Of a stretch of 64,000 nt of DNA, positions 6,205-33,761 are shown in pieces; positions within the stretch are counted from its first letter, which is position 1; each line of letters opens with the position of its first letter. The notes beneath the pieces are model-generated. The model searched no databases, had not been told where the DNA came from, and saw nothing but the letters and a program-made list of their open reading frames with translations. This DNA comes from Qipengyuania sp. SS22 (GTDB lineage Bacteria; Pseudomonadota; Alphaproteobacteria; Sphingomonadales; Sphingomonadaceae), in the NCBI RefSeq assembly GCF_025736935.1, contig NZ_CP107048.1, positions 1,749,501-1,813,500 of the forward strand. Reading direction: 5' to 3'. The position numbers and the translations under genes were made by a program.

Positions 6205-9200
6205 CTAGGCGGTTGCCTGCTGGTCAGCGTCGTGGGCGCGCCCTTCGAGCCATTCAAGCTGCTCGAGAATGACCGGCGTCACATCGCGGTGCGCGTTATG
6301 GCCGATGAACAGGTCCATATGGCCGTAATTCGGCACGATCCGCTGCTGGTATAGCTCGGGCTTGTTATTCCCCTGCAACCAGACGCGCGTGCGCTGGCCG
6401 CTTTCGGGATAGAACAGCTTGTTCGTCGCACCCGACAGGAAGCTGATCGGCAACGCCAGGCGGCGCGCTGCGTCGTCGCTCGTATAAACGGCTTGGCCCG
6501 CGGCATCGACTGCCAGCCCCTTGCGCATGACCTCCTGCAAGTGCTCGAACGGCTTGAGCGATACGCGGCTGAACATGCTGCCCAGCGCCAGATGCGTATC
6601 GTGACCCAGCTGGCTGTGGTCCCAGCTCGGACCGAACACGCCGAACACGCGGCGGCAGGTCGGGTTCTTGCACGCCTGCCCCTCGGGTACGGGAATCTGG
6701 TAAGCGATCGCGTCGATCTCGTAATCGGCCTCGGTGCCCTGGCTGACGAAGTCGAGATGCCCGTCGAGCAGCGAGATCTGTCCGAGCGTCCCCGCCACAC
6801 CAAGATCGGCCTTCATGTAATTGAGCCAATCGGTCACCGGATGCAGCGTAAGCTGCGAGGAAATGAGCGAGCGCACGCCCGAGACCCAGCCTGCGCCAAT
6901 CCCCATCAGTAAGCTCATCGAGCCCACACAATGAGCGATCGCCTGCACGCTGTCGGCACCGCTGACCTTGCGGATCCTCGCAATCGCAGCCGGCCAATCG
7001 TACTGCGCGATATCGTCGATCGTGAATTCGGGCGGATGTTCGGTATCATTGCCCGCATCTGCGCTGGCACGGTAATCGAACAGCCACACATCGTAACCCT
7101 GCGCCACGAGGCTTTCGGCGAGATTTTCCTCGACCGTCGGCGTGGCGAAGCTGGACGCGCGCACCGAAAAGCCGGGCGCCAGAACCAGCGGTCCGCGCGC
7201 GCCGCCGCGATAGCGGGTCAGGCCGATGCTCGCCCCGTCTTCGGTGGGCACGAAATGCTTTTCCGGCGGTGGCAGCCGCAGTTTGCGGTCCACCAGCTTG
7301 GCCGCATCCTTGGCGGCGAAATCGTTGAGCGTGGCCAGCATCCCGCCATAGGAGCGGAATACGGTCATCGCGAAGAAGCCCGCGTATTTGGCGACGAAAT
7401 AGGTATCGATCGCCTTCTTGGCGCGCGGAATCTGCTTCACGACATGCGCAACCAGCGTCCCCGTATCGTGCACCTCGATCGTCGTCAGCTGGCGCATGAA
7501 TTCGTCGATCCCCAGCTTAAGCACGCCGCGACCGATCAACTCGCCGCTGGCATCCTCCCCATGACGCAGCGTGACGAACAGCGTGGTGAGATCGGTCCAG
7601 GGATCGGACTTGCCGCGCTGCTCGAGCGTCTTGAAGCCGTGGAAATGGACCGGCCCCGCGGGACCGTCGAGCACCATATCATAGAGCATGGTCCAGCTTT
7701 CGGCGCGCGTCGGATCGGCGACCAGCAGGCGGAAGGTACCTTCGCGCACCGGCAGCGGATCGGGTGACAGCGCGGCGACCGTGACGGTGCCGGTAATGCG
7801 CGAACGGTGCTCCTTCTCCTCGATCATGCGATGGAGGTTCTCGGTCGTCACGGTCAGCCTGAAGTGGCAGTCGCCGCCATGCGTGCGGCCCCACGCCTCG
7901 CCATTGGCGTAATCGTCGCGGATACGTTCGACATGGCCGCAGGGACGGTGGTGGCACCCGACGTCGCTGATATGACCGGCCATCGTTTCGGTAAAGGACA
8001 GCCCGGGGGCCATCGCTTCGGGATGGTTCATCACCAGCTGGCGGATCGCCGCCTTGCCTTCGTTGATCGCGCCGCTCTCGAAATGCTCGGCGGCCTTCTC
8101 GATCCACTGGGCCACCGGTTCGATCGCATGGCCCGCTACCCATTTCGCAATTGCCAGCCGCAGGCCATCGCCGCGCGGGGCAAGTATCGGGTCTGGTGAG
8201 GCTTCCTCGACCGGCGCCGGTTGGGGCAGCGGCCCTTCCTCGCCAAGTGTGAAGTCGATGGTCCAGCCCTGCCGCTGCGCCAGCTTCTCGATAGCGCGTT
8301 CGGCCACCGCGGTGATCGTCAGCAGCGGATTGACGCCGACCGAGCCGGGCAGCGCGGCACCGTCGCAGACATAGAGACCTTCGTGAACATCGGTCCCCGC
8401 AGTGCCTGCAAAGACACGGCAGGTGTCATCGACCACGCCGGTGGCCGCATCGTCGCCCATGCCGCAGCCGCCGATCGGGTGAACCGTGATCAGCTTCTTG
8501 CCGAACGGGTCGCTCCACAGCGGATCGGAGAAATATTGCGCGTCGATCGCACGCGCCGCTTCGGCCATTTTGTCATCGTCGCGGCGGAAGGTGCGCTGTT
8601 CGCCTGCGCCCGGCCAGTGGATCGTCAACCGGTCGTCATCGAGCGCCAGCTGGCCGCCCGAATCGTCGACGCTCATCACCAGATAGGTCTGCATGCGCGA
8701 CATCGGGCCCTTATAGGCCCATTCGGCGATACTGCCGGGGTCGGTCTGTACCGCTTCGCCCATCGCCTTGGCATCCATCAGGCGCGGCTTGACCTGGTCC
8801 ATTCCGAAGCGGGTGAAGCCATCGGCCAGTGCCTCGCCGAAGAAGAACGCCGGGGCGAGCGCAGTGGCGATGATGCCGGGGGCAACGCCCTCCTCGATCA
8901 CCAGCCCCTCGGTCACGTCCCTCGTCCCGCGCATGTCGATCACGCCGGTGATGCAGGGGCCAGGATAGGCTTCCTTCGCGACATCCGAAGCCCCCACGCC
9001 GATCGCATAAAGCGGCTGTGCGGTGAGCGTATCGTCCTCGTCCTTTTCGGCCTTGAGATAGCTGTCGTAAGCGAAGCCCAACGCATCGCCATTGCCCGAG
9101 AAATTGGCACCCAGCCGGTCGGAAAGCGCGAGACCCTTCTCGCGCGAGCGCAGCAGGATCTCTGTCGACCCGAGCGTGCCCGCGCCCAGAATGACATGGT

Positions 9201-10002
9201 CGGCAGTGATGCTGGTCGGGCCCTGCGGCGCATCGACGCCATTGGGCTCCAGATGGACACGCCACCGCTCGCCCTCGCGCTCGACCCACTGCACTTTCGC
9301 CTGCGTGAAGATTTCCGCACCGTGATTGGCGGCATCGGGCAGGTAGTTCATCAGCGTGGTATTCTTCGCGCCGACATTGCAGCCCGATACGCAGTCCCCG
9401 CAATTGGTGCAGGCCGGCTGCGGCACCCCGAACTTGTTGGTCTTGTCTTCGAAGGTGACGTTGATCGGCGTCTTGTAGAAGCGCTTGCCCATCTTCTCGG
9501 CCGAGTGTTCTAGCGCGTCGAGTTTGCCCAACGTCGGATAGCTGTCGGGATAAGGGTTGGGTGCGAGCATTTCGCGGGCGCGCTCGTAATAGGTGTCGAT
9601 CTCGTGCTCGTGCTCTCGGAGCGCCGCGGGCCAATGCGCCTGGTCGAGCAGCCGCTTGTCGAGTTCGAGTGCGACATTGGCGTTGATGAGCGAGGTCCCG
9701 CCAAGCCCGCAGCCGACCAGCGCATATTGATCGTCGTTTACATGCACTTCGAACAAGGCATCGGCCGCACCGATCCGGCCGCCCTTGGCATTGATCTGCA
9801 TCGCGTCCTGCGCGTCGGCAAGCTTGTTGGGATATTCGCCGGGGAGCCGTTCCTTGCCGCGTTCGAGGACAGCGACGTCCTGCCCCGCGCGTGCCAGCCG
9901 CGACGCGGCAACGCCTGCGCCATAGCCAGACCCGATCACCAGGACGGTGTAATGCTGTTTTGCCTGATCCAGGCTCTTCGCGATGCGTTTCTGCATGGTC
10001 AT
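6205..10002 (-). CDS. GMC oxidoreductase fused to an alpha/beta hydrolase with Cys nucleophile
   Basis: 1265-residue multidomain protein. Residues 1 to about 580 form a GMC flavoprotein of the cholesterol-oxidase type: FAD motif VIGSGYGAG (about 22-30), a ferredoxin-like CTNCGDCVSGCNVG cluster near residue 200, HPIGGCGMG and GVNPLLTITAVAERA near the end. A middle region (about 600-890) is unassigned; it contains a short H/C-rich patch (DVGCHHRPCGHVER). From about 920 to 1250 there is an alpha/beta hydrolase with the nucleophile elbow AHCVGS (C1025) and a late histidine in NYGHMD, resembling PHA synthase/lipase folds. Its ATG overlaps the upstream phosphoesterase stop by 4 bp. Substrate is unknown; a sterol, hydroxy-acid or lipid alcohol is plausible. 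Confidence 0.82.
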   Translation of the reverse strand: MTMQKRIAKSLDQAKQHYTVLVIGSGYGAGVAASRLARAGQDVAVLERGKERLPGEYPNKLADAQDAMQINAKGGRIGAADALFEVHVNDDQYALVGCGLGGTSLINANVALELDKRLLDQAHWPAALREHEHEIDTYYERAREMLAPNPYPDSYPTLGKLDALEHSAEKMGKRFYKTPINVTFEDKTNKFGVPQPACTNCGDCVSGCNVGAKNTTLMNYLPDAANHGAEIFTQAKVQWVEREGERWRVHLEPNGVDAPQGPTSITADHVILGAGTLGSTEILLRSREKGLALSDRLGANFSGNGDALGFAYDSYLKAEKDEDDTLTAQPLYAIGVGASDVAKEAYPGPCITGVIDMRGTRDVTEGLVIEEGVAPGIIATALAPAFFFGEALADGFTRFGMDQVKPRLMDAKAMGEAVQTDPGSIAEWAYKGPMSRMQTYLVMSVDDSGGQLALDDDRLTIHWPGAGEQRTFRRDDDKMAEAARAIDAQYFSDPLWSDPFGKKLITVHPIGGCGMGDDAATGVVDDTCRVFAGTAGTDVHEGLYVCDGAALPGSVGVNPLLTITAVAERAIEKLAQRQGWTIDFTLGEEGPLPQPAPVEEASPDPILAPRGDGLRLAIAKWVAGHAIEPVAQWIEKAAEHFESGAINEGKAAIRQLVMNHPEAMAPGLSFTETMAGHISDVGCHHRPCGHVERIRDDYANGEAWGRTHGGDCHFRLTVTTENLHRMIEEKEHRSRITGTVTVAALSPDPLPVREGTFRLLVADPTRAESWTMLYDMVLDGPAGPVHFHGFKTLEQRGKSDPWTDLTTLFVTLRHGEDASGELIGRGVLKLGIDEFMRQLTTIEVHDTGTLVAHVVKQIPRAKKAIDTYFVAKYAGFFAMTVFRSYGGMLATLNDFAAKDAAKLVDRKLRLPPPEKHFVPTEDGASIGLTRYRGGARGPLVLAPGFSVRASSFATPTVEENLAESLVAQGYDVWLFDYRASADAGNDTEHPPEFTIDDIAQYDWPAAIARIRKVSGADSVQAIAHCVGSMSLLMGIGAGWVSGVRSLISSQLTLHPVTDWLNYMKADLGVAGTLGQISLLDGHLDFVSQGTEADYEIDAIAYQIPVPEGQACKNPTCRRVFGVFGPSWDHSQLGHDTHLALGSMFSRVSLKPFEHLQEVMRKGLAVDAAGQAVYTSDDAARRLALPISFLSGATNKLFYPESGQRTRVWLQGNNKPELYQQRIVPNYGHMDLFIGHNAHRDVTPVILEQLEWLEGRAHDADQQATA

Positions 10003-23853: not shown

Positions 23854-26800
23854 TCAGTTGCGCAATTGCGCCCCGCCATCGCCGACAATCGCGAATGCCG
23901 ACCAATAGAACGGATGCGAGGTCTCGCTCTGGTCCATCAGCCGGCGCTGCGACTGGCGCATGGCTTCGGCCAGCGAGGTTCCCGGTGTCACCGCAAAGAA
24001 GCCGTCGATCAGCCGGTTCGTCGCATCGTAATCGTCCGGCACCGGCCAATGGCTGGCGACGACGGTCCTGCCGCCCGCACCGACGAAAGCGCGGACCAAT
24101 CCATCGAGGGCAAACCCGCCGCCGCTGACGCCCGCTTCGCGCGTAGCGCCGAGCGTTGCCTCTCCGGCCGTGTCGCAGGCCGAGAGAATGACCAGATCGG
24201 CATCGATCTTGAGATCGAAGATTTCCGCGAAGGACAGCAGCCCATCGGACTGCTCGTCCCCGAACGAGGTCAGCAGCGCCGGACGCGGCGGGCATTCGGG
24301 CTGCGGGGCGGTTACGAGGCCGTGCGTGGCGAAATGGAGGATGCGATACTGATCGAGGTCTTCCATCCCCAGAACCGCGGTATCGGTAAAGGTGTCGCCG
24401 GTGACGATCCGCTCTTGTGCGGTGCCCGCACCCAGGCTGCGCGAGGCAGCGTAAAGCTCGTCGGCCTTGATCGGATAGTCCCAGATCGACGGCGCCCACA
24501 GGCAGTCGGCCCCGCCAGCCAGCGCCGCACGCGTGCCGAGCGTCCCGCGCCCCTGGGTCAGCGGCGTGTTCTCGCCGAACCCGATATATTCGCGGACCGC
24601 GGAGGACCCGGGGGCCCGGCGGACATCGCGGAAGGCCGACGGGGACACGGTGGTCGTGATCCTGACCGCACGCCCCAGCCAGTTGGTCCCGGTGAAGTCG
24701 TAGTCGTCGCCGCCCTGCGCGATCCGCTCGACATAGCGATCGACGCTGGCGTCATCGGCGACCAGCAGGTTCGCAGGCAGCCGCAACATCGCGCCATCGG
24801 GTTCGAATACGAGATGGTCGAGCGCTTTCACCTCACCATCGACCGGTTCGAGCAGCGCCTTGTACAGCGCGCGCGATTTTTCGATGTCGAAGGGGAAGGT
24901 CAGCGTCTGCCCGTTCTCGACATAGGCGATAGTGGCCCGCAAATCGTCCACCTCGGCCTCGAGCGCCTCGGGATCGACACCTGCGCGATAGGCGCGCGCC
25001 ATCTCCGACGTGGCAAAGATGGCGAAGGTCGCGCCGTCCAGCGTCGCCAGCTTGAGATAGCCTTCGCCTGGCCGCAGCGTCCCCTGCAATTCCTCCAACG
25101 TAACCCGGCCATCAGATACCGCGCGGAAACGGGGATATTCGCCCAGCCTGTCCTGTATCGCCAATTGCTGCGTCTCGAGCTGGGCGAGCGCTGTGCGCTG
25201 CGCGGTCAGCCGTTCGGCAACCAGCGGATCGGCAACCGCCTGCCCTTCGAGCAGCGCCACACGATTGCGCAATTGTTCGACCGAACGCCCGACATTGACC
25301 GCCTTGCGGAAGAGTTGCGAGGCTTCGTCGCTCCCGCCCGACAACTCACGTGCAAGCACCGCCTGGGTTTGCGCCAGGCCCGGGCGTTGCAGCAGCTGGC
25401 TGGCAAGAAACATGTCCGCCGCAGCCTCCGCGTCTGCATCCCCGTCCCGGGTCAGCAGATCGAAGAACGGCACCAGCAAACGGCGCAGGGCTGGCGTCGG
25501 CTTGCCCTGCGCATCGCCCACCAGATCGCGATAGGCAGCGAGCGCTTCGTCGCTCCGCCCGCTGCGCGCCAGATAGCCCGCATATTGCGCCTTGCTGCTC
25601 AGCAGTGCGGGGGAATTGGGGTAATTGGTCTCAAGCAGCGCGATCGCTCGGCCATGATAGCCCTCGGCAGCACCCGCATCGTTCTTGTCCTCGGCCAGGT
25701 CGGCCAGTTCGCCCAGCACCTGCGCACGCAGCCACAGGATCGAACGGACCGAACCATTACGGACACTCGCCAGGCCGCTGTCGGCATCGGCCAAGCGCTG
25801 CTCGGCTTCACCCTTGCGCCCCAGAAGACGCAGCGCGGTCGCGCCGAGATAGTCGGTCTGCCCGTCGAGCAGATCGGCGCGTTCGAGCGCGGAGAGCCCG
25901 CCGACTTCGTCCAGCGCACTCGTCTGTTCGGCCGACAGCCGTGCGGCCAGCGCATCGGTGATTTCCTGGCCCGCCAGCGCATCCTGCGACGTCGCGCCGG
26001 TTGCGAGCGGGCGCTCGATGATGTCGAGCGCCACCTGCGGCGCCCCCGCATTCAATGCATCGATCGCCTCATAATTGCGCAGCAGCCGCGCCAGCACCGG
26101 ATCGCCGCCGACTTGCCCGCGCACGCTCGCGAAACCTCTGGAGGCTTCGGCATAATTGCCGAGGTTCGATTGTAGGAGCGCGGCATTGAGGCGCGCTTCG
26201 AGGGCATTGTCGCCTTCTGCAGTGGCGGCAGTCGCGGCGAAGAATTCGGCGGCTTCGGCGAAATCGCCGCTATTGCTGCGGCGGTAGGCTTCGGCGATCA
26301 CCGCATCCGAGGCGAGCGCGCGCGCCTGTGCGCGGGCAAAGGCGACCGCGTCCCCGGTTTCGGTAAGCGGGATCTCGACGTTCCCCTGGACAGGACGATC
26401 GTTGACCAGCGTGGCAATCCCGAGCCGCACGGCATCGGAATAGGCGGTAATGGCCTCACCGGCATAGAGCTTCCCGCCGTGCTTGCCCGCCACGAGGACG
26501 CGCCGCGTCCCCAGATCGCTATCGCTGCAGGAATAGCTTTGGCTGTCCCCCAGCGCGTCGGGTACGGCGGTTCCGTCACCTTCGCGGCATTCGGCCGAGG
26601 GGAGGAACCGCGCCTGCGCATTCGCGCCTTGCGCATCGCGAAGAACCCAGAGCGTGCCTACAGGGGCTGCGGCATCGCGGCAGACGATCGTATATCCGCG
26701 ATCGAACAATCCGGCCCCTGGCTGCGGCGGCATGATCTGCGCTTCGCACAGGCCATTGGCCCCGATCGGGAAGGTGTCGCTATAGCTGACCGGACGCTCG

Positions 26801-26892
26801 CCATTCTGTGCAGCAACGGGCTGAAGCGGAGCCGACAGCGTCACTGCTGCGGCGCTGCAGGCCGCCAATACGGTCCAGGTTTTACTGCTCAT
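23854..26892 (-). CDS. Secreted CHAT-domain protein with TPR-like repeats
   Basis: 1012 residues; start at 26892 (MSSKTWTVLAAC), with GGAGGA 5 bases upstream. The first about 28 residues are a signal peptide ending PVAA|Q, so the protein is exported. The middle (about 190-570) is helical with tetratricopeptide-like units (SGDFAEAAEFFAATAATAEG; SGRSDEALAAYRDLVG). The last about 400 residues are a CHAT caspase-like domain: H857 in ILHFATHGLV and C906 in VILSACDTAGEA form the catalytic pair, and HPFYWSAFAIVGDGG closes it. It overlaps the TpsA stop by 11 bp, so it is the third gene of the secretion operon. It may process TpsA or act outside the inner membrane; the target is unknown. Confidence 0.85.
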   Translation of the reverse strand: MSSKTWTVLAACSAAAVTLSAPLQPVAAQNGERPVSYSDTFPIGANGLCEAQIMPPQPGAGLFDRGYTIVCRDAAAPVGTLWVLRDAQGANAQARFLPSAECREGDGTAVPDALGDSQSYSCSDSDLGTRRVLVAGKHGGKLYAGEAITAYSDAVRLGIATLVNDRPVQGNVEIPLTETGDAVAFARAQARALASDAVIAEAYRRSNSGDFAEAAEFFAATAATAEGDNALEARLNAALLQSNLGNYAEASRGFASVRGQVGGDPVLARLLRNYEAIDALNAGAPQVALDIIERPLATGATSQDALAGQEITDALAARLSAEQTSALDEVGGLSALERADLLDGQTDYLGATALRLLGRKGEAEQRLADADSGLASVRNGSVRSILWLRAQVLGELADLAEDKNDAGAAEGYHGRAIALLETNYPNSPALLSSKAQYAGYLARSGRSDEALAAYRDLVGDAQGKPTPALRRLLVPFFDLLTRDGDADAEAAADMFLASQLLQRPGLAQTQAVLARELSGGSDEASQLFRKAVNVGRSVEQLRNRVALLEGQAVADPLVAERLTAQRTALAQLETQQLAIQDRLGEYPRFRAVSDGRVTLEELQGTLRPGEGYLKLATLDGATFAIFATSEMARAYRAGVDPEALEAEVDDLRATIAYVENGQTLTFPFDIEKSRALYKALLEPVDGEVKALDHLVFEPDGAMLRLPANLLVADDASVDRYVERIAQGGDDYDFTGTNWLGRAVRITTTVSPSAFRDVRRAPGSSAVREYIGFGENTPLTQGRGTLGTRAALAGGADCLWAPSIWDYPIKADELYAASRSLGAGTAQERIVTGDTFTDTAVLGMEDLDQYRILHFATHGLVTAPQPECPPRPALLTSFGDEQSDGLLSFAEIFDLKIDADLVILSACDTAGEATLGATREAGVSGGGFALDGLVRAFVGAGGRTVVASHWPVPDDYDATNRLIDGFFAVTPGTSLAEAMRQSQRRLMDQSETSHPFYWSAFAIVGDGGAQLRN

Positions 26893-29800
26893 CGGAATCC
26901 TCCGCGGTCTCATCATCCTGCTCGGGGGCTTCTTCGCCCGCGCCATAGAGCGCGATATCTCCGCCACTGGCGACCGGATCGTCGATCGCGCCCTGCTTGC
27001 CGATCAGCGAGGCGCTGAGCAGCCCTGGGAAATCGGCTCCGAACTCGACATTGCTGTCCTGTTCGCTCTGCTCGACCGGTGCGGTTGCGATCGCTGCGGT
27101 GGTCGTCACCGCAGCCGCCGGCGCTTTCTGGTCGATCTCCTCAAGCACCTCCTCGCGCGTATCGGGCGGCGGCGGTTCGACCCCGGCGCATTGCGCGGTG
27201 TTGATCGTGCAATCGTTGAATTGCGACGCGTCGGTGTAGGTCGTGAACAGTCCGTCGAGGTCCTCATCGGTACTGAACTCGACCAGAGCGAAGAAATCCT
27301 CTCCGGTCACGAAACTGCCATCGCCGTTCAACTGGCGGCCGTAGGCGAAGACATCAAGCGCTCCGCCCGAGGGGGTTTGCTGGTCGTCATTTTCGAAGCT
27401 GGCGATCGACAAACCTCCGGTGACGGTAATGCCCGCCGGAGCCTGGCTCGTTCCCGTATTGCGAACCAGCAGGCTGCTGCCGACCGCGAGCAGGACATCG
27501 CCGGCGCGCAAATATCCAAGCGGATCGGAACTGCCCGCGGCGGCGGCTGCCAGCAGCGCGTCGCGGCCGGCAAAGCCGACGTCGTCGCGAAGCTGCGCGA
27601 TGGTGTCCGCATCGGCCATCCAGAAGTCGTTGCCGAAGAAGCTGAACCGCCCGGTTGGATTGTCCTGCGAATCGACAATGCCGATCCCTCCCGGGGTCAC
27701 GATTTCGAGCCGTTGTGCCAGGATGGACAGTTCATCGGTCGGAGCCGCATCGACATAGGCAAGGATGCCTTCGACGCGGGCCACTCCGCCTGCGCCGATA
27801 AACACACTGGCCACGCCATCGTCCAGCGACCCGAAGATGGTCGTGTCACGGATCAGCAGATCGTCCGACGCCATGCCTTCGAAAGAGGCGCCGAAATAGG
27901 CGGCGCTCGCGTCGATGCGTTCAAGCTCGGCCTGGGTAAGCGTGTAACCCCCGGTATCGCCGGTTCCGCCAAGCACGGTCGTCGCGTCGTTGCCGAACAC
28001 GACGAGATTGAGAAACTCGGCGCCGATCCTTGCCCCCGCGAGAATGTCGAGTTCGCTGGAAAGGATGAACACATCCTGCCCGCCGAAGCCGATCTGGTCG
28101 TCATTGTCGCCATCGATCGTCACGGTACCACCGGTATCGATGGAGATGGCGGCAGTGGGATCGCCGATGCTTGGTCCGCCGATCAGCCCGCCGTTCGCCG
28201 TGACGATGTCGAGATCGCCGGTGAGCTCGAACTGCGCCAATCCCGTTATCGGGATCGCGCCGCCCGCAGCACGAATCAGCGACGCATCCCCAGCGCTGGC
28301 GCCGGTCGCCCGCGCGACAAGCTGATCGAGTCCGATCGTCCCGCCATTGGCGATGATCTCGAACGCCCCGGCCGTATCCGCGCCAAGCGCTTCCAGCCGC
28401 AGGAAATCCGCCTCGATAGCAGCCTCGGCGCTCGCCAGAACCTGGACCAGGCCGCCAATTGCACCGCCTGATTGCACGCCTGTCGCGTCGAAGCCGCCGA
28501 ACCCATTGGCAGTGAGGGTTGCATCCCCGAAGGACAGGCTGCCACCGGTCCGGCTGTGCACATAGGCCAGACCGCCGGTCCCACTCCCGCCATCGCCGTC
28601 ACTCGACCCGCCTCCGAAGGCGCTCGCATCGAGAGTGGTTGTGCCCGAGATGGTCGTGGTGCCCGCCAATACGTCGAGGAAGGCTGTTCCGCCTGTAGCA
28701 TTCCCGCCGACAGCCCCGCCCCCACCATTCGCAAGCGAATTGAGGATAACATCGCCGCCGACCGTGAGGATCGCGGTGTCCGAAGTGGTTATGCTAGCGA
28801 CCCCGCCTTCAGCCAGACCGCCATCGCCCGTTTCCGAAGCCCCGCCGTTGCCGATCGCGGAATATTGGATGTCGCCAGTCACATTGAGGATTGAATCGCT
28901 GTCGATCGAGACGTCACCCGCGCGCCCGGCGCCGCCATTGCCGGTCGTCCCGCTGCCGCCGGTGCCTTGCGCGCTGCCGATGACGGATAGCGCGTTGAGC
29001 GTGCCACCGACGATCCCCATCCCGGCATTGCCGCCAAAGCCGTCCCCGCCGGTCGAACCGGCCCCGCCGGTGCCATCGGCGCGAGTCGAAATGTTCCCCG
29101 CGTCGACCTGCGAACCATTGGCGAACACGCCCGCGAAGCCGCCCGCGGCAATTCCGCCCGCACCAAGCGCGACAGCGCCCGATCCGCCATCGCCGCCATT
29201 GCCGCTTGCTTCGAGCGTCAGCATATCGAACTGCGCCCGGCCATTGCCGAGCGATCCGTCGCCGCCGCCGCTGAATGTGCCGGCCTGCGTGGTACCGCCC
29301 ACGCCCGCGCCACCGGCTCCGCCGACCTGTCCGGTACCGCCGGTGCCGCCCGTGCCGCCGAAACCGCTCGCCGAAAGCGCGGTGCTGCCCCCGACCGTCA
29401 GCGTGGCATTGTCGCGGCCGGCGAGTGCGAAGGCGCCGCCCGTACCGGGTGTTCCCTGGAATGTGCCTCCCGTACCGTTGCCGCCGGCGCCCGCGCCGAT
29501 CGTGCTGCCATCACCTTCGCCGCCGTCGCCGCCGACACCCGAGGCATTCATCGATGCATCGCCGGCGATCGTAAGACTGGCGGAGAGGGTTTGCGAACCA
29601 TCGGCCTGGATATAGGCGGTGCCGCCCAGCGCATTGCCGCCGGTGCCACCGAAGCCAATCGACGCATCTCCGGCCGAGGCATTGGCAGAAAGCGCGGCCG
29701 ATCCATCGACGCTGATACTACCGTAGGTGGCGTAGATCCCGGCTATACCCCCCGTCGCATCTCCGCCCGCCTGTCCATCCCCGCCAGATGCGGTGGCTTG

Positions 29801-31933
29801 GAAATCCACATCTCCCCCGACATTTACGTCGCCGGTGCCTTCGGTCAGGATGATCACGCGACCGGCGCTGCCATCGCCCCCGGCTGCAATGGACCCAGCG
29901 GCGCCGGTGCCAATCGCAAAGCCGACAACATCGGCCGTCGTAATCGCCCCTGTACCAGTGGCGTATATTTGCCCGACACCACCAATGCCTGCGCCGCCCG
30001 CACCACCGATGCCCCCCGAACCCGGAACCTGCAGCGTCGTGGTCCCAGCGATGTCGATGGTCCCGTCAAGGGCATTGATCAACGCCTCGCCGCCCTGACC
30101 CAGCCCCCCGGTATCACCAGGACCGCCGCCGAACACGCTCGCGCCACGTCCTCCAGTACCCGACGCATTGAGTGTCAGCGTGCCGCCGAAAGTGATTGCC
30201 CCGCCATCGGCTTCGACATTCGCCAATCCGCCGGTCCCTGCACCGCCGTCGATGATGCCCACCGCTCCGTCCGCATCGCCGCCACTACCGATCGCTGTCA
30301 GTGTCGCGTTCCCGACGACATCGATGATCCCGCCGCTCTGCGCGACGATCTCACTGCTGCCGCCGGTGGCACTGTAACCGACGCGCCCGTTGCCGAAGGC
30401 GGACGTATCGACGGACAAGGTGGCGCCAAGTTCGATGACACCGGCGTTCTGTGCAGCCAAGATAGCGCTGCCACCGTTTCCATTGCCAAGCCCGCCCGAG
30501 GTCGTTTGGTCGAGCGCTCGGGCGCGTAGGATCACGTCGCCATCGATCGACAGCGAGCCCCCGTTCGCGCTCAGTTCGATCTCGCCTCCGGTCGCCGCGC
30601 CATTATCCTGCACCGGCGTGGCGTCGGCAGTCAGCGCACCCGCGATCTTCAGTGTCGCATCTTGGCGTGCAATAAGGTCGATCGTTCCGCCGATCACGTC
30701 GCCCGAGGTGGCGATGGTTCCGCGGGCCAGCAAATCGGCATCCCCGGTGATCGTAAGATCGTTGCCATTGGTCGCGGTGAGCGAGATCGCACGTGCCGCC
30801 TCGACCGTGAGGCCATCCTCGAAATCAATCGCGCCGGCATTGGACGTGACGCTGAAATTGCCCGTCGCCCCGGCGAAGACACTTGATGTCAGGTTGGCGG
30901 CACCGGTGACCGAAATCGATTCTGCCACCGCTCCGTCATCGACCCCACCGGTCTCCACATCGCGCCCGAAGACATCATAACCGGCGGACAGGATGATATC
31001 GCCATTATCGACTCCGGCGCTAACCGCGGTGTCGAACCCCAGATTGCCGCGCAGGAGCATGGTGATCGGATCGTTCACCGCGCGCGCGACCATGTAAATC
31101 ACATGGTTGTCGCCCGCGCCCAGACTCGACGGGCCGCCGGTGACGCCGCGATGGTCGATTGGCGTGGCCACGCTCGTCCCAACCGGGATTTCGATATCGA
31201 ACAGTCCGCTATTGTAGGTCAGGTTGACCTGCTCGCCTGCAATGTAGGCGGTCGAGCCATTGATATTGGCGTTGCCCTGCATCGAAATTTGCGGTGCGGC
31301 AGTGACGAAATAACTGCCTTCGCCCGCCGCGGTGATTTGAGCCCCCGGCGTGATCGATATGCCCGCGGTCGATCCTTGCGTTCCAGTCAGCTCAAGCGCT
31401 CCACCCGCAGCATAGCTCTCGAAACTGTCGAGATCGGCATCGAGAGTCGTCAGTAGAAGCTGGCCGACATCGAACACCGCTGTGCCGCCAACTAGGATCC
31501 CGGTGGGCGAATAGAAGGCGACCGTCCCGCCAGTGGAGAATCCTCCGTTGGCGTCTTGGAGACGCGAGATGACCGACCCCTGGAACACCACCACATCGCC
31601 ATTGGTCGAAGGCAGAATGCGGTTGAGGACTGCAAACCCGCCCTGCCCCGGTCCGTCCTGGAAATAGGCTGTCGCACCATTGGGAAGAAAGGTCAGCGCA
31701 TTGCCCTGGTCATCCTCGAAGGGGAACCAGTCGAGCACCGCGGTTGCAGAAGTGATCGTGAATGTGTCGACATCCGTGACCGAGCGATCGATATCGACGG
31801 TACCCCGCACGATTGTGGGAGCTCCATTGAAAGCATCTGCCCGCGCCTGCGAAGGGATCGCCAATACTGCGGCCATGGCGAGTCCGGCGCCGCCAAGCAG
31901 CAGGGGCAGACGATGATTGATCGAGCGGGCCAT
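26882..31933 (-). CDS. TpsA-type exoprotein, filamentous haemagglutinin-like, Gly-rich
   Basis: 1683 residues. Signal peptide to about A32 (IPSQARA|DA). Residues about 33-260 are a TPS secretion domain, with VLNRILPSTNGDVVVFQGSV-like and GGTVAFYSPTGILVGG motifs. A long stretch of degenerate glycine-rich repeats follows (about 440-1130), of the form GGxGGxGxGG with hydrophobic strands between, consistent with a beta-helix. Near the end a cysteine pair, C1575 and C1582, sits where HMW1-type adhesins use a disulfide loop for surface anchoring; about 100 residues follow, ending in an acidic tail. The gene starts 1 bp after the tpsB stop with GGAGG upstream. Its role is likely adhesion, matrix formation or contact; not testable here. 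Confidence 0.85.
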   Translation of the reverse strand: MARSINHRLPLLLGGAGLAMAAVLAIPSQARADAFNGAPTIVRGTVDIDRSVTDVDTFTITSATAVLDWFPFEDDQGNALTFLPNGATAYFQDGPGQGGFAVLNRILPSTNGDVVVFQGSVISRLQDANGGFSTGGTVAFYSPTGILVGGTAVFDVGQLLLTTLDADLDSFESYAAGGALELTGTQGSTAGISITPGAQITAAGEGSYFVTAAPQISMQGNANINGSTAYIAGEQVNLTYNSGLFDIEIPVGTSVATPIDHRGVTGGPSSLGAGDNHVIYMVARAVNDPITMLLRGNLGFDTAVSAGVDNGDIILSAGYDVFGRDVETGGVDDGAVAESISVTGAANLTSSVFAGATGNFSVTSNAGAIDFEDGLTVEAARAISLTATNGNDLTITGDADLLARGTIATSGDVIGGTIDLIARQDATLKIAGALTADATPVQDNGAATGGEIELSANGGSLSIDGDVILRARALDQTTSGGLGNGNGGSAILAAQNAGVIELGATLSVDTSAFGNGRVGYSATGGSSEIVAQSGGIIDVVGNATLTAIGSGGDADGAVGIIDGGAGTGGLANVEADGGAITFGGTLTLNASGTGGRGASVFGGGPGDTGGLGQGGEALINALDGTIDIAGTTTLQVPGSGGIGGAGGAGIGGVGQIYATGTGAITTADVVGFAIGTGAAGSIAAGGDGSAGRVIILTEGTGDVNVGGDVDFQATASGGDGQAGGDATGGIAGIYATYGSISVDGSAALSANASAGDASIGFGGTGGNALGGTAYIQADGSQTLSASLTIAGDASMNASGVGGDGGEGDGSTIGAGAGGNGTGGTFQGTPGTGGAFALAGRDNATLTVGGSTALSASGFGGTGGTGGTGQVGGAGGAGVGGTTQAGTFSGGGDGSLGNGRAQFDMLTLEASGNGGDGGSGAVALGAGGIAAGGFAGVFANGSQVDAGNISTRADGTGGAGSTGGDGFGGNAGMGIVGGTLNALSVIGSAQGTGGSGTTGNGGAGRAGDVSIDSDSILNVTGDIQYSAIGNGGASETGDGGLAEGGVASITTSDTAILTVGGDVILNSLANGGGGAVGGNATGGTAFLDVLAGTTTISGTTTLDASAFGGGSSDGDGGSGTGGLAYVHSRTGGSLSFGDATLTANGFGGFDATGVQSGGAIGGLVQVLASAEAAIEADFLRLEALGADTAGAFEIIANGGTIGLDQLVARATGASAGDASLIRAAGGAIPITGLAQFELTGDLDIVTANGGLIGGPSIGDPTAAISIDTGGTVTIDGDNDDQIGFGGQDVFILSSELDILAGARIGAEFLNLVVFGNDATTVLGGTGDTGGYTLTQAELERIDASAAYFGASFEGMASDDLLIRDTTIFGSLDDGVASVFIGAGGVARVEGILAYVDAAPTDELSILAQRLEIVTPGGIGIVDSQDNPTGRFSFFGNDFWMADADTIAQLRDDVGFAGRDALLAAAAAGSSDPLGYLRAGDVLLAVGSSLLVRNTGTSQAPAGITVTGGLSIASFENDDQQTPSGGALDVFAYGRQLNGDGSFVTGEDFFALVEFSTDEDLDGLFTTYTDASQFNDCTINTAQCAGVEPPPPDTREEVLEEIDQKAPAAAVTTTAAIATAPVEQSEQDSNVEFGADFPGLLSASLIGKQGAIDDPVASGGDIALYGAGEEAPEQDDETAEDSDEQ
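28540..30600 (-). repeat. Glycine-rich degenerate repeat region within tpsA
   Basis: Coding DNA dense in GGC/GGN codons encodes imperfect tandem units rich in GG, GT and GN, separated by short strand-forming segments. Limits are approximate. The repeats diverge in DNA and protein, so this is an old repetitive fold and not a fresh tandem duplication. Confidence 0.55.
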
Positions 31934-31934
31934 A

Positions 31935-33761
31935 TCAGAACCTCCAGGGAAGCAGGCGGGTGGTGAGCGAAACGAGCACGCGCACGTCTCCGCGATCGGC
32001 AGCGAAATCGGGTTTCTCGAGCGGCACTGCGACAGCCACATCGGCCTGCAGCGCGCTGCCATAAGCAAAGCGGATACCGCCGCCCGCCGACCACAGGCGA
32101 TCGGGATTGAGCGGGGAACGGCTCGGGTCCTCGTTCCAGGCCCAGGCCATGTCGGTGAAGAGATAGCCTTCCCACGCCAGTTCGGCGAGGCCATCGGGCG
32201 CCAGCGAACCGTAGCCCATTTCCAGCGACAACGCGTAGCCGCTATCCCCGAGAATGCTGCCCGGGTCATAGCCGCGGCCAAGCGAATAATTGCCCGCAGA
32301 GAATTCCTCGAAGGCGGGCAGCGGATCGCGGGAGAATTGTGCATTCATGCCGAGCGAGAAACGCACATCGGGTATGGGCCGGTAATCGGCCTCGCCTTCG
32401 ATCCGTACCAGCAAGGGCGTGGGATCGGCCTCGATCCGGTTGGGGGCTACACCCGCCACAATGCAGGTGCGCGGATCGGTGCGGCAATCGGGGGTGGCAT
32501 CGAATATGTCGATCCCCTGGCGCAGCTCGATCGCGCCGCGCGCGCCAAGCCGGGGTTCGAAGGCGCTGAAGCCATTGGTGCCCGCGATGCTGGCGGGATC
32601 GGCGTAGAGCGAATCCACCCGCAGGAAGACCGTCCGCACCCGGTCGCGCGTCAGGCGCAGATCGTTCACCGTCAGGTCCTGGTCGACGTAATCGAATCCG
32701 CTGCTCAGGATATGCGAGGTGCTGCGGCTGCGCTGGATCGGGTAGGACAGCCCCGCTGAGGCGAACAGCGTTTCGGATTCGACATCGAGCCCGGGCAGGT
32801 CGAGATCGGGGTCGGTCCAGCTATAGGTGAACTGGCCGAACATCCGCAGACCATCGCCGCCGATCGCGAAATCATGCCGGAGCTGGACGGTTTGCTGCTC
32901 CTCGAACTCGGCGGTGGAGAACAGCGCGACGCTGGTCCGGTCGCCGAGCCCGGTCAGATCATAGACCTCGCCGCGCAGCAGCCCGCCGAACCGGCCAAGC
33001 GCCTTGGATCCGAAGTTCTGGACATTGAGATCGAGCGTTCCGCGCCGCCGTATCACCGCGATATCGCCGACCAGATCCCCCGGCGCTCCGCCTGCGGCAG
33101 GGCGCAGCGAGAGACGAACATCGACCCCCGGCAGGTCGTCGGCGAGCAGCAGATAGCGCTCGGCCCGCGTGGTGTTGAAGACCGCATCCTGCGTCAGCGG
33201 TTCGAGATAGGTCGCCACCAATTGCTCGGAAGGCCCCGCATCGCCGCGCACCCGCAATGCCGTGACCCGGCCGAACACAACGCGCATTTCCGCGTCGCCA
33301 TTGGACAGCCGCTGCGCAGGGATTTCGACCGTCGCGAGATAGCCCGCCTGCTGAAGCCGCTGGTTGGCCGCCGCGCGGACATCGCACAGCACCGATACGG
33401 GCAGTTCGCGACCCACATAGCTCTCGTAGGCTCCGGTCAGGTCGACTTCGGGCGCTTTGTCCGCACCGATGAAGCGCACCGCATTGAGCGTTACCGTGAT
33501 GTCGGCCAGATCGGGCGCGTCGAGCGCGCAGGGCGAGCGCTCCATTCCCCCGTCGATCGTCAGCGTGGTGGGCGGCGCAACCGGCTCGCGTGCTTGCGGC
33601 GGGGTCAGCTCGCTGCGGCTTGGCACCGCTTGTGCTTGCGCCATCGCGGGATTGGCAAGCGCGAACGCCCCCACCCCGGCCAGCAAGACCGTGCGTGCGC
33701 GGTGTAACGCGGGCCCATCGCCGCTATTCAAATTCGTGTAGATACGCTGGCCAAAGCCCAT
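31935..33761 (-). CDS. TpsB-type outer-membrane transporter (FhaC/ShlB family)
   Basis: 608 residues; start at 33761 (MGFGQRIYT), preceded by a GGGGGG run 8 bases upstream; an in-frame ATG at 33794 is a less likely alternative. A signal peptide ends about NPAMAQA. POTRA-like modules follow (residues about 80-230; YVGRELPVSVLCDVRAAANQRLQQAGYLATVEIP), then a 16-strand-type barrel with the family signature YSLGRGYDPGSILGDSG and a terminal aromatic residue (LLPWRF). It exports the TpsA encoded one base downstream through the outer membrane. Heads the operon tpsB-tpsA-CHAT. Confidence 0.9.
   Translation of the reverse strand: MGFGQRIYTNLNSGDGPALHRARTVLLAGVGAFALANPAMAQAQAVPSRSELTPPQAREPVAPPTTLTIDGGMERSPCALDAPDLADITVTLNAVRFIGADKAPEVDLTGAYESYVGRELPVSVLCDVRAAANQRLQQAGYLATVEIPAQRLSNGDAEMRVVFGRVTALRVRGDAGPSEQLVATYLEPLTQDAVFNTTRAERYLLLADDLPGVDVRLSLRPAAGGAPGDLVGDIAVIRRRGTLDLNVQNFGSKALGRFGGLLRGEVYDLTGLGDRTSVALFSTAEFEEQQTVQLRHDFAIGGDGLRMFGQFTYSWTDPDLDLPGLDVESETLFASAGLSYPIQRSRSTSHILSSGFDYVDQDLTVNDLRLTRDRVRTVFLRVDSLYADPASIAGTNGFSAFEPRLGARGAIELRQGIDIFDATPDCRTDPRTCIVAGVAPNRIEADPTPLLVRIEGEADYRPIPDVRFSLGMNAQFSRDPLPAFEEFSAGNYSLGRGYDPGSILGDSGYALSLEMGYGSLAPDGLAELAWEGYLFTDMAWAWNEDPSRSPLNPDRLWSAGGGIRFAYGSALQADVAVAVPLEKPDFAADRGDVRVLVSLTTRLLPWRF

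Follow-up and report, generated by a model that had tools for sequence, protein, structure and literature searches.

The tpsB-tpsA-CHAT operon

We analyzed a 64,000-nucleotide stretch of contig NZ_CP107048.1 of Qipengyuania sp. SS22 (positions 1,749,501 to 1,813,500, here called the window) that encodes a two-partner secretion (TPS) transporter, TpsB, an exoprotein, TpsA, and a large protein with a CHAT domain (Table 1). In the sampled relatives, these genes occur together with genes for a CHASE2-cyclase and for a member of an unnamed protein family, here named Y, and the five may form a trans-envelope system. All three open reading frames (ORFs) in the window lie on one strand, with a 1-bp gap between the tpsB stop and the tpsA start and the CHAT ATG placed 11 bp inside the end of tpsA, which bears out the original prediction, made from the sequence of the window, that they form one tightly coupled unit. 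By a first-ATG rule, 15 of the 31 loci with tpsA upstream have a 4-bp overlap between the tpsA stop and the CHAT ATG, and the operon arrangement recurs in dozens of genomes, which is more than chance. A Pfam search of the 2.68-Mb, single-contig genome found one CHAT gene and one ShlB gene, both in this operon. The GC content of the three genes (0.65 to 0.67) is near that of the window (0.65). No sigma-70-like promoter was found in the operon region, and terminator-like sites around the operon were not in excess (5 found versus 5.9 expected from shuffles).

Table 1. Features of the operon, in window coordinates
Feature	Position	Strand	Description
tpsB, two-partner secretion transporter	33761-31935	minus	608 aa; POTRA_2 and ShlB/Omp85 barrel
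tpsA, exoprotein	31933-26882	minus	1683 aa; signal-peptide-like start, N-terminal TPS domain, Gly-rich repeats, C-terminal module
CHAT, TPR-CHAT protein, probably exported	26892-23854	minus	1012 aa; H857/C906
TpsA cysteine pair C1575/C1582	27188-27217	minus	NDCTINTAQC, residues 1573-1582
TpsA C-terminal motif IDDPVASGGDIALYG	26942-26986	minus	residues 1650-1664, ahead of an acidic tail of 19 residues
Terminator-like hairpin with T-rich tail, directly 3' of the CHAT stop	23805-23780	minus	consensus match only

TpsB is by sequence a member of the two-partner (type Vb) transporters, with Pfam matches to ShlB (PF03865, E = 6.2e-14), POTRA_2 (PF08479, E = 1.9e-7), and Omp85 (E = 2e-6) that are all above the Pfam cutoffs. 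Full-length TpsA had no match in Pfam, while its first 330 residues matched the TPS domain (PF05860) with an E value of 2.9e-4, below the Pfam cutoff. The same domain was matched by 19 of 29 aligned TpsA members at 0.01 or better, and a profile of the 29 members matched EtpA (3.5e-11) and HxuA (6.7e-8) in the PDB. On the basis of the N-terminal match and those of the relatives, we assign TpsA to the two-partner exoproteins, which carry an N-terminal TPS domain. The length of the tpsA ORF varies from about 1250 to 5000 aa among relatives. Searches of the TpsA C terminus against Pfam, NCBIfam, and PADLOC for a toxin tip or contact-dependent inhibition module returned no match, a result that an undescribed toxin would escape.

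The C terminus of TpsA carries two conserved features. The only two cysteines of the whole protein are the pair listed in Table 1. From 116 N-terminal hits, 67 TpsA sequences had a complete C terminus and a length of at least 1000 aa, and 61 of these were distinct. An N-x-C-x(4-9)-C pair is present in 52 of the 61 (shuffled mean of 0.28, maximum of 2), at a median of 111 residues before the end. The disulfide-size pair noted in the original prediction is therefore a conserved feature, and the acidic tail described with it is present as well (10 D/E among the last 19 residues), but a conserved C-terminal motif of the form [DE]-x-P-V-[TSA]-[SG]-x-G-[ND]-x-x-L-[WYL] had been missed. A relaxed expression for this motif also matched 52 of the 61 ends (shuffled mean of 0.73, maximum of 3) and only 12 of 1110 internal windows, with a median position 27 residues before the end; a degenerate DNA pattern of its core had a single match in the genome, at 26957-26980 of the window. 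Giant ORFs beside distant CHATs (about 25 to 33% CHAT identity where measured) end in related strings, namely, ELITGATNEALW, DLFTGSSNESLW, NPLIGRGNEGLI, and AFSGSGNPSQW and, beside distant CHATs outside that identity measurement, SSWGNEALWQ and IPGWGNTALWQ; GATNEALW and GNEALWQ are examples of such tails. Because the motif is kept despite divergence, on a variable exoprotein and beside a TPR protease, it is the best candidate for a CHAT ligand or cleavage signal. In two loci (L116 and L117), the motif is followed by several more copies of a QVTGTRNENLD-like unit.

The CHAT domain (PF12770, E = 5.3e-53) spans residues 672 to 1005 of the third protein. The His857/Cys906 pair that had been predicted lies within HFATHG and SACDT, respectively; both residues are invariant in a 66-row alignment, and 121 of the 123 distinct core CHAT ORFs, that of the window among them, keep the dyad motif. 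The domain and the His/Cys dyad mark the protein as a putative CHAT peptidase, for which proteolysis is predicted. An AlphaFold model (predicted local distance difference test score, pLDDT, of 81.5) matched Csx29/TPR-CHAT, separase, and the anti-sigma factor DdvA, matches that indicate fold only and barely cover residues 1 to 180. The TPR-like middle, also foreseen, appears as a long TPR region in these structures, and the corresponding part of the CHAT profile matched kinesin light chain TPRs (E = 2e-7); the window protein matched Pfam TPR models below the cutoff only. A kinesin light chain TPR with a tryptophan-acidic peptide (6f9i, by its title) offers a possible model for how the TpsA motif might dock.

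CHAT proteases are mostly known as cytoplasmic proteins. By a crude rule, a signal-peptide-like start is present in 98 of 106 core CHAT ORFs (those, among 130, in which an anchor was found) versus 6 of 130 internal control segments. The signal peptide and export assigned in the original prediction thus gain from the relatives, but the N terminus of the window protein itself has no 19-residue stretch above 1.6 on the Kyte-Doolittle scale and so lacks a strongly hydrophobic segment. Cysteines C102, C122, C797, and C867 are invariant in the 66-row alignment and C49 and C71 nearly so, which would fit an exported protein. Taken together, the sequences indicate that CHAT is probably periplasmic or exported. 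A lipoprotein start (LAAC) was considered and rejected, as it is not kept among aligned relatives.

Co-occurrence with a CHASE2 cyclase and protein Y

The distribution of the operon was examined in two partly overlapping sets of loci. From 149 genomes of the family, 80 loci around CHAT matches were fetched, followed by 20 extensions; 27 of the first 80 (L085 to L111) contain distant CHATs and were left out of the core counts. The second set consists of the best 80 of 565 loci confirmed in the genome collection (named loci). Of these, 78 come from taxa that we take to be Sphingomonadales, and the other two are metagenome-assembled genomes titled more broadly. One listing of homologs covers 120 of 909.

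The DNA fetched around core CHAT genes includes a tpsB of the same family at 51 of 53 loci. The two exceptions are L033, on a contig that opens within a giant ORF upstream of CHAT, and L049, in a genome whose TpsB is encoded elsewhere. Among the named loci, 69 of 80 show tpsB, and in the other 11 the available DNA starts inside TpsA or no more than about 4.3 kb upstream of CHAT. The finding that would have spoken against the original prediction, homologs of this CHAT mostly free of TPS genes, was thus not made, and the tie between CHAT and the TPS pair holds. More distant CHATs behave differently, as no tpsB was seen in the fetched stretches of the 16 weak-hit loci L096 to L111. At the genome level, a core TpsB (>390 bits) is encoded in 46 of the 47 genomes with a core CHAT and in 0 of the 102 others; in the 47th (G117), TpsB is cut at a contig end and scores 172 bits. 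Of the 102 genomes that lack core CHAT, 40 have some weaker TpsB match. Distant CHATs occur in part of these, and three genomes (G028, G030, and G053, with TpsB matches of 316, 200, and 314 bits) had no match in the CHAT search of the 149 genomes. CHAT is therefore no general accessory of TPS systems.

At many loci, the gene after CHAT encodes a protein with CHASE2 and cyclase domains, and the next one encodes the approximately 250-aa protein Y. Core CHAT is common in the family (47 of 149 sampled genomes), and all 47 genomes also encode a CHASE2-cyclase (>500 bits), which is found in only 1 of the 102 others (G018, 85% complete). Likewise, Y is encoded in 47 of 47 core-CHAT genomes versus 5 of 102 others; these five are G018; G012, G050, and G106, in each of which Y adjoins a distant CHAT; and G053, where the match is marginal. 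A same-genus genome, G078, has no match to CHAT, Y, TpsB, or CHASE2. Another genome of the genus, G146, has CHASE2 and Y, and Qipengyuania flava DSM 16421 has the tpsB-tpsA-CHAT genes (L133). The three-gene unit of the original prediction is therefore a real operon but an incomplete account of the set.

In the window's genome, the genes for the CHASE2-cyclase (945 bits) and Y (227 bits) adjoin each other near 2.66 Mb, about 0.88 Mb from the operon. This cyclase (positions 7312-9444 of locus L215) has both domains of a CHASE2 receptor cyclase, CHASE2 (PF05226, 3e-22) and a class III cyclase (PF00211, 1.1e-12), and is by sequence one of that class. Its CHASE2 domain (residues 82 to 362) lies between transmembrane-like stretches (32 to 57 and 345 to 424) with the cyclase domain behind, a layout that would place CHASE2 in the periplasm together with Y and CHAT. 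No more than 5 kb separates CHASE2 from Y in any of the 47 core-CHAT genomes. The distance between CHAT and Y is at most 25 kb in 25 genomes, and the two are unlinked in the other 22, including that of the window. Because its CHASE2-Y pair precedes genes that follow four of the eight loci with all five genes in a row, the second half of the system appears to have been rearranged in this genome, not lost.

Those eight loci (L135, L136, L144, L145, L202, L205, L210, and L211) have the order tpsB-tpsA-CHAT-CHASE2-Y. Among all loci with CHAT and tpsB, tpsB is downstream with CHASE2 present in 54, upstream without CHASE2 in 38, downstream without it in 15, and upstream with it in 8; in all four arrangements the genes are on one strand. 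The RefSeq annotation of Sphingobium plasmid pMSHV independently lists CHAT, CHASE2, a hypothetical protein, ShlB, and a large protein, and two other Sphingobium plasmids (pTomTYG46a and pTomTYG65a) have the same spacing. A search for a further conserved neighbor within 10 kb in the 80 named loci gave best clusters of only 10 of 80.

Protein Y has a signal-peptide-like start and is periplasmic in appearance. It has 434 homologs at an E value of 0.001 (for example, L215:9386-10156); the 120 of these that were listed are without precomputed Pfam domains, and where they have names these read hypothetical or uncharacterized, so Y is an unnamed protein family. A structure model (pLDDT of 85) had no match in the PDB at an E value of 0.001. 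The possibility that Y is a FecR protein was rejected, as FecR was absent from the matches of 27 Y proteins (17 + 10) at an E value of 1. Six loci (L143, L188, L190, L192, L047, and L070) have two tandem Y matches after the CHASE2 gene. In the class Alphaproteobacteria, 39 of the 385 genomes searched have Y, 37 of them outside the family. Twenty of the 41 places with Y outside the family were fetched, and 17 of these contain CHASE2; CHAT, Y, and CHASE2 with a giant exoprotein-like ORF occur in other Alphaproteobacteria as well. From this distribution, CHASE2-Y appears to be the wider pair, to which TPS-CHAT has been added or from which it has been lost.

A possible trans-envelope relay and its alternatives

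We propose a trans-envelope system of five components whose outer half is encoded in the window and in which a change at the surface acts through CHAT on Y and the CHASE2 cyclase and thus on cyclic AMP (cAMP), a reading to which we give even chances. The five components co-occur; export, cleavage, and signaling are inferred. In the TPS family, TpsB exports TpsA N terminus first, and C-terminal parts of the exoproteins can stay in the periplasm, exposed to proteases, as in FhaB. Here, TpsB would thread TpsA outward in the same direction, the cysteine loop and the C-terminal motif would remain periplasmic, and the motif would dock in the TPR groove of CHAT. A surface change in TpsA, such as contact, a ligand, or completed export, could alter this docking and trigger CHAT, which may cut TpsA near its tail for release or maturation. 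The state of CHAT and TpsA would then be passed via Y to the CHASE2 domain, changing cellular cAMP; the simplest chain would run from the TpsA tail to CHAT, Y, CHASE2, and cAMP in turn. One CHASE2-Y hub could serve more than one TPS-CHAT unit in trans, as five of the seven genomes with two core CHATs carry a single Y match and one hub may thus serve two units.

The set consists of known parts in a new combination and would be a system of a new kind if the relay is real. Our searches of a literature library found no paper that joins a CHAT domain with two-partner secretion or with CHASE2. More tentatively, and short of an even chance, we suggest a new trans-envelope relay in which the TpsA tail is both ligand and substrate of a periplasmic caspase-fold protease that drives a CHASE2 cyclase via Y as a new periplasmic adaptor family, so that events at the surface would be converted into cAMP. 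If true, this would be a new bacterial way of reading the cell's own surface, with a CHAT protein outside the cytoplasm tied to an exoprotein and a cAMP-type receptor. CHASE2 domains would gain a testable input (TpsA, CHAT, or Y), and TPS exoproteins would gain a candidate C-terminal docking or cleavage signal.

Several observations weigh against this proposal. The cleavage, localization, and cAMP steps are proposals based on sequence. Distant (clade-2) TPS-CHAT loci have no CHASE2 or Y beside them, so the cyclase is not needed for CHAT to pair with TPS. In the 20 Y regions fetched outside the family, CHAT is present in only 7 (L249 to L252, L254, L260, and L261), and of the 37 Y-encoding genomes from outside the family, 8 have no match to the CHAT profile and 29 have one, which in G471 and G511 is confined to the TPR part. 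The tail motif may have TpsB, Y, or something else as its partner. Nine of the 61 TpsA ends fail the motif expression; by eye, seven of these are variant-like (L035, L140, L157, L210, L138, L179, and, more loosely, L202) and two appear out of frame (L208 and L060), and the tails of L221, L249, and L251 (QQFPNLGRVW) fit the motif poorly. Furthermore, the core cutoffs (420 bits for CHAT, 390 for TpsB, and 500 for CHASE2) were set post hoc at score gaps, and at a loose E value of 0.001, 68 genomes have some CHAT, of which 50 have Y. Fisher P values for the associations ignore shared descent and are inflated; contrasts within genera exist (g1, g35, and g79) but did not enter a tree-based count. 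In the 22 genomes where the parts are unlinked, they nevertheless occur together, an observation that is independent of those P values.

In the best-surviving alternative, CHAT is a dedicated protease for TpsA maturation or shedding and nothing more, and the CHASE2-cyclase and Y merely time expression of the operon via cAMP. The 4-bp overlap of tpsA and CHAT in 15 loci and the conserved tail motif would suit such a protease, as would the clade-2 loci that lack an adjoining CHASE2 or Y. However, Y looks periplasmic, unlike a regulator, and is tied to core CHAT no less strictly than the cyclase, and a candidate cAMP receptor was rejected. This candidate, a Crp/Fnr gene, was considered because it lies just upstream of CHAT on pMSHV and pTomTYG46a; it is not found on pTomTYG65a, and a phmmer search of the ORFs from 181 loci gave no match at 1e-5, so it was rejected as part of the module. 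We regard this alternative as unlikely.

Another explanation draws on genes that surfaced only with wider fetches. In the window's genome, the CHASE2-Y pair is followed by cytA, an HbpS-like gene, P3, and, by eye, the start of cytB (L215 10157-16001, about 2.662 to 2.668 Mb), and the same genes follow four of the eight five-gene loci. CytA is a Cytochrome_C554 multiheme protein, P3 is uncharacterized, and CytB is a multiheme protein with subthreshold MtrC-like and C7 matches. All or part of this group comes after the module in 17 loci, with both gene orders represented (among them L134 to L137, L205, L206, L210, L113, L117, L119, L122, L125, and L130). The proteins could accordingly set up or control a redox or heme apparatus at the surface, with TpsA as a scaffold or heme-binding exoprotein served by the downstream cytochromes and the HbpS-like protein. 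The presence of cytA in 44 of 47 core-CHAT genomes versus 9 of 102 others is in keeping with this, and the TpsA profile matches HxuA, a heme/hemopexin-binding protein. The association is nevertheless weaker than that among the five, since three core-CHAT genomes (G011, G084, and G145) lack cytA and nine genomes have cytA without core CHAT, and the HxuA match is to the general TPS domain. We consider a redox or heme role quite improbable as the explanation of the set.

CHAT might also act as a periplasmic escort or retention factor for TpsA, with proteolysis of little weight. The long TPR region and the resemblance of the conserved tail motif to a binding peptide are compatible with an escort, but retention of the dyad motif in nearly all core ORFs argues for a peptidase, and we consider the escort role very improbable. 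A surface-triggered defense or self-killing system, in which a caspase-like executioner is set off when TpsA receives a phage or contact signal, is hardly credible: excerpts of one account count CHAT domains among bacterial defense effector domains (PMC10907252), but the three window proteins had no convincing PADLOC match (best, Cyclase, E = 0.093), and CHAT looks exported, away from cytoplasmic targets.

Relation to known systems

The proposed relay shares parts with described systems. The Bordetella FhaB system likewise has a TpsB/TpsA pair with a very large repeat exoprotein and a special C-terminal part, and FhaB is reportedly processed by DegP and SphB1. Here, in contrast, the operon itself includes a gene for a caspase-like CHAT protein, this protein is accompanied by a CHASE2 cyclase and Y, and no Pfam domain was found in the C terminus of TpsA. 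The CHAT model matches the fold of Csx29/TPR-CHAT of Craspase and of separase but differs from them in that the protein is probably exported, has an extra N-terminal region (approximately residues 1 to 180) with conserved cysteines, and has TPS and CHASE2 proteins as partners. No cas gene of a Craspase (type III-E) was seen in annotated neighborhoods, and no search of the genome was aimed at Cas7-11. DdvA, a single membrane-anchored anti-sigma factor matched by the CHAT model (8rw5 and 8rot), was compared by PDB title alone.

The nearest worked example of CHASE2 cyclases informed of an outside protein signal comes from Sinorhizobium meliloti, where, in excerpts of the published account, CyaD1, CyaD2, and CyaK respond to such a signal via the outer-membrane barrel NsrA (PMC13001267). 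A FecR-domain protein, SMc02177, is encoded there beside smc02178, itself near cyaD1, and SMc02177, SMc02178, and SMb20495 are described in part of a further account as not needed for signal perception (PMC5498481). A simple analogy is weakened because the FecR and TPR proteins are, in that partial account, dispensable for perception. The excerpts on the NsrA system contain no TPS pair, and Y, with its FecR matches at 0 of 27, does not resemble the FecR partner. The TPR protein SMb20495 is presumably encoded on pSymB, judging by its name, and was rejected as a CHAT protein, as pSymB has no PF12770 match.

CHAT also has other neighbors in more distant loci. In a distant TPS-CHAT clade, a Sphingomonas parapaucimobilis plasmid (L219) has tssH, tssK, tssL, and tssM around TpsA, CHAT, and a CPBP protease, with tpsB recognized by a local hidden Markov model, and in L085 an ImpA_N gene follows CHAT in a type VI secretion context. 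A Pseudosulfitobacter plasmid (L220, with 46 matching records in the genus) encodes a caspase family protein, a serine protease, two hypothetical proteins, and CHAT in a row. In Trichodesmium, according to an excerpt, a metacaspase carries a CHASE2 domain (PMC2853523), and on a Calothrix plasmid (L226) CHAT adjoins genes for DUF928, CHASE2, and TIR proteins, a CHAT-CHASE2 neighborhood in a cyanobacterium.

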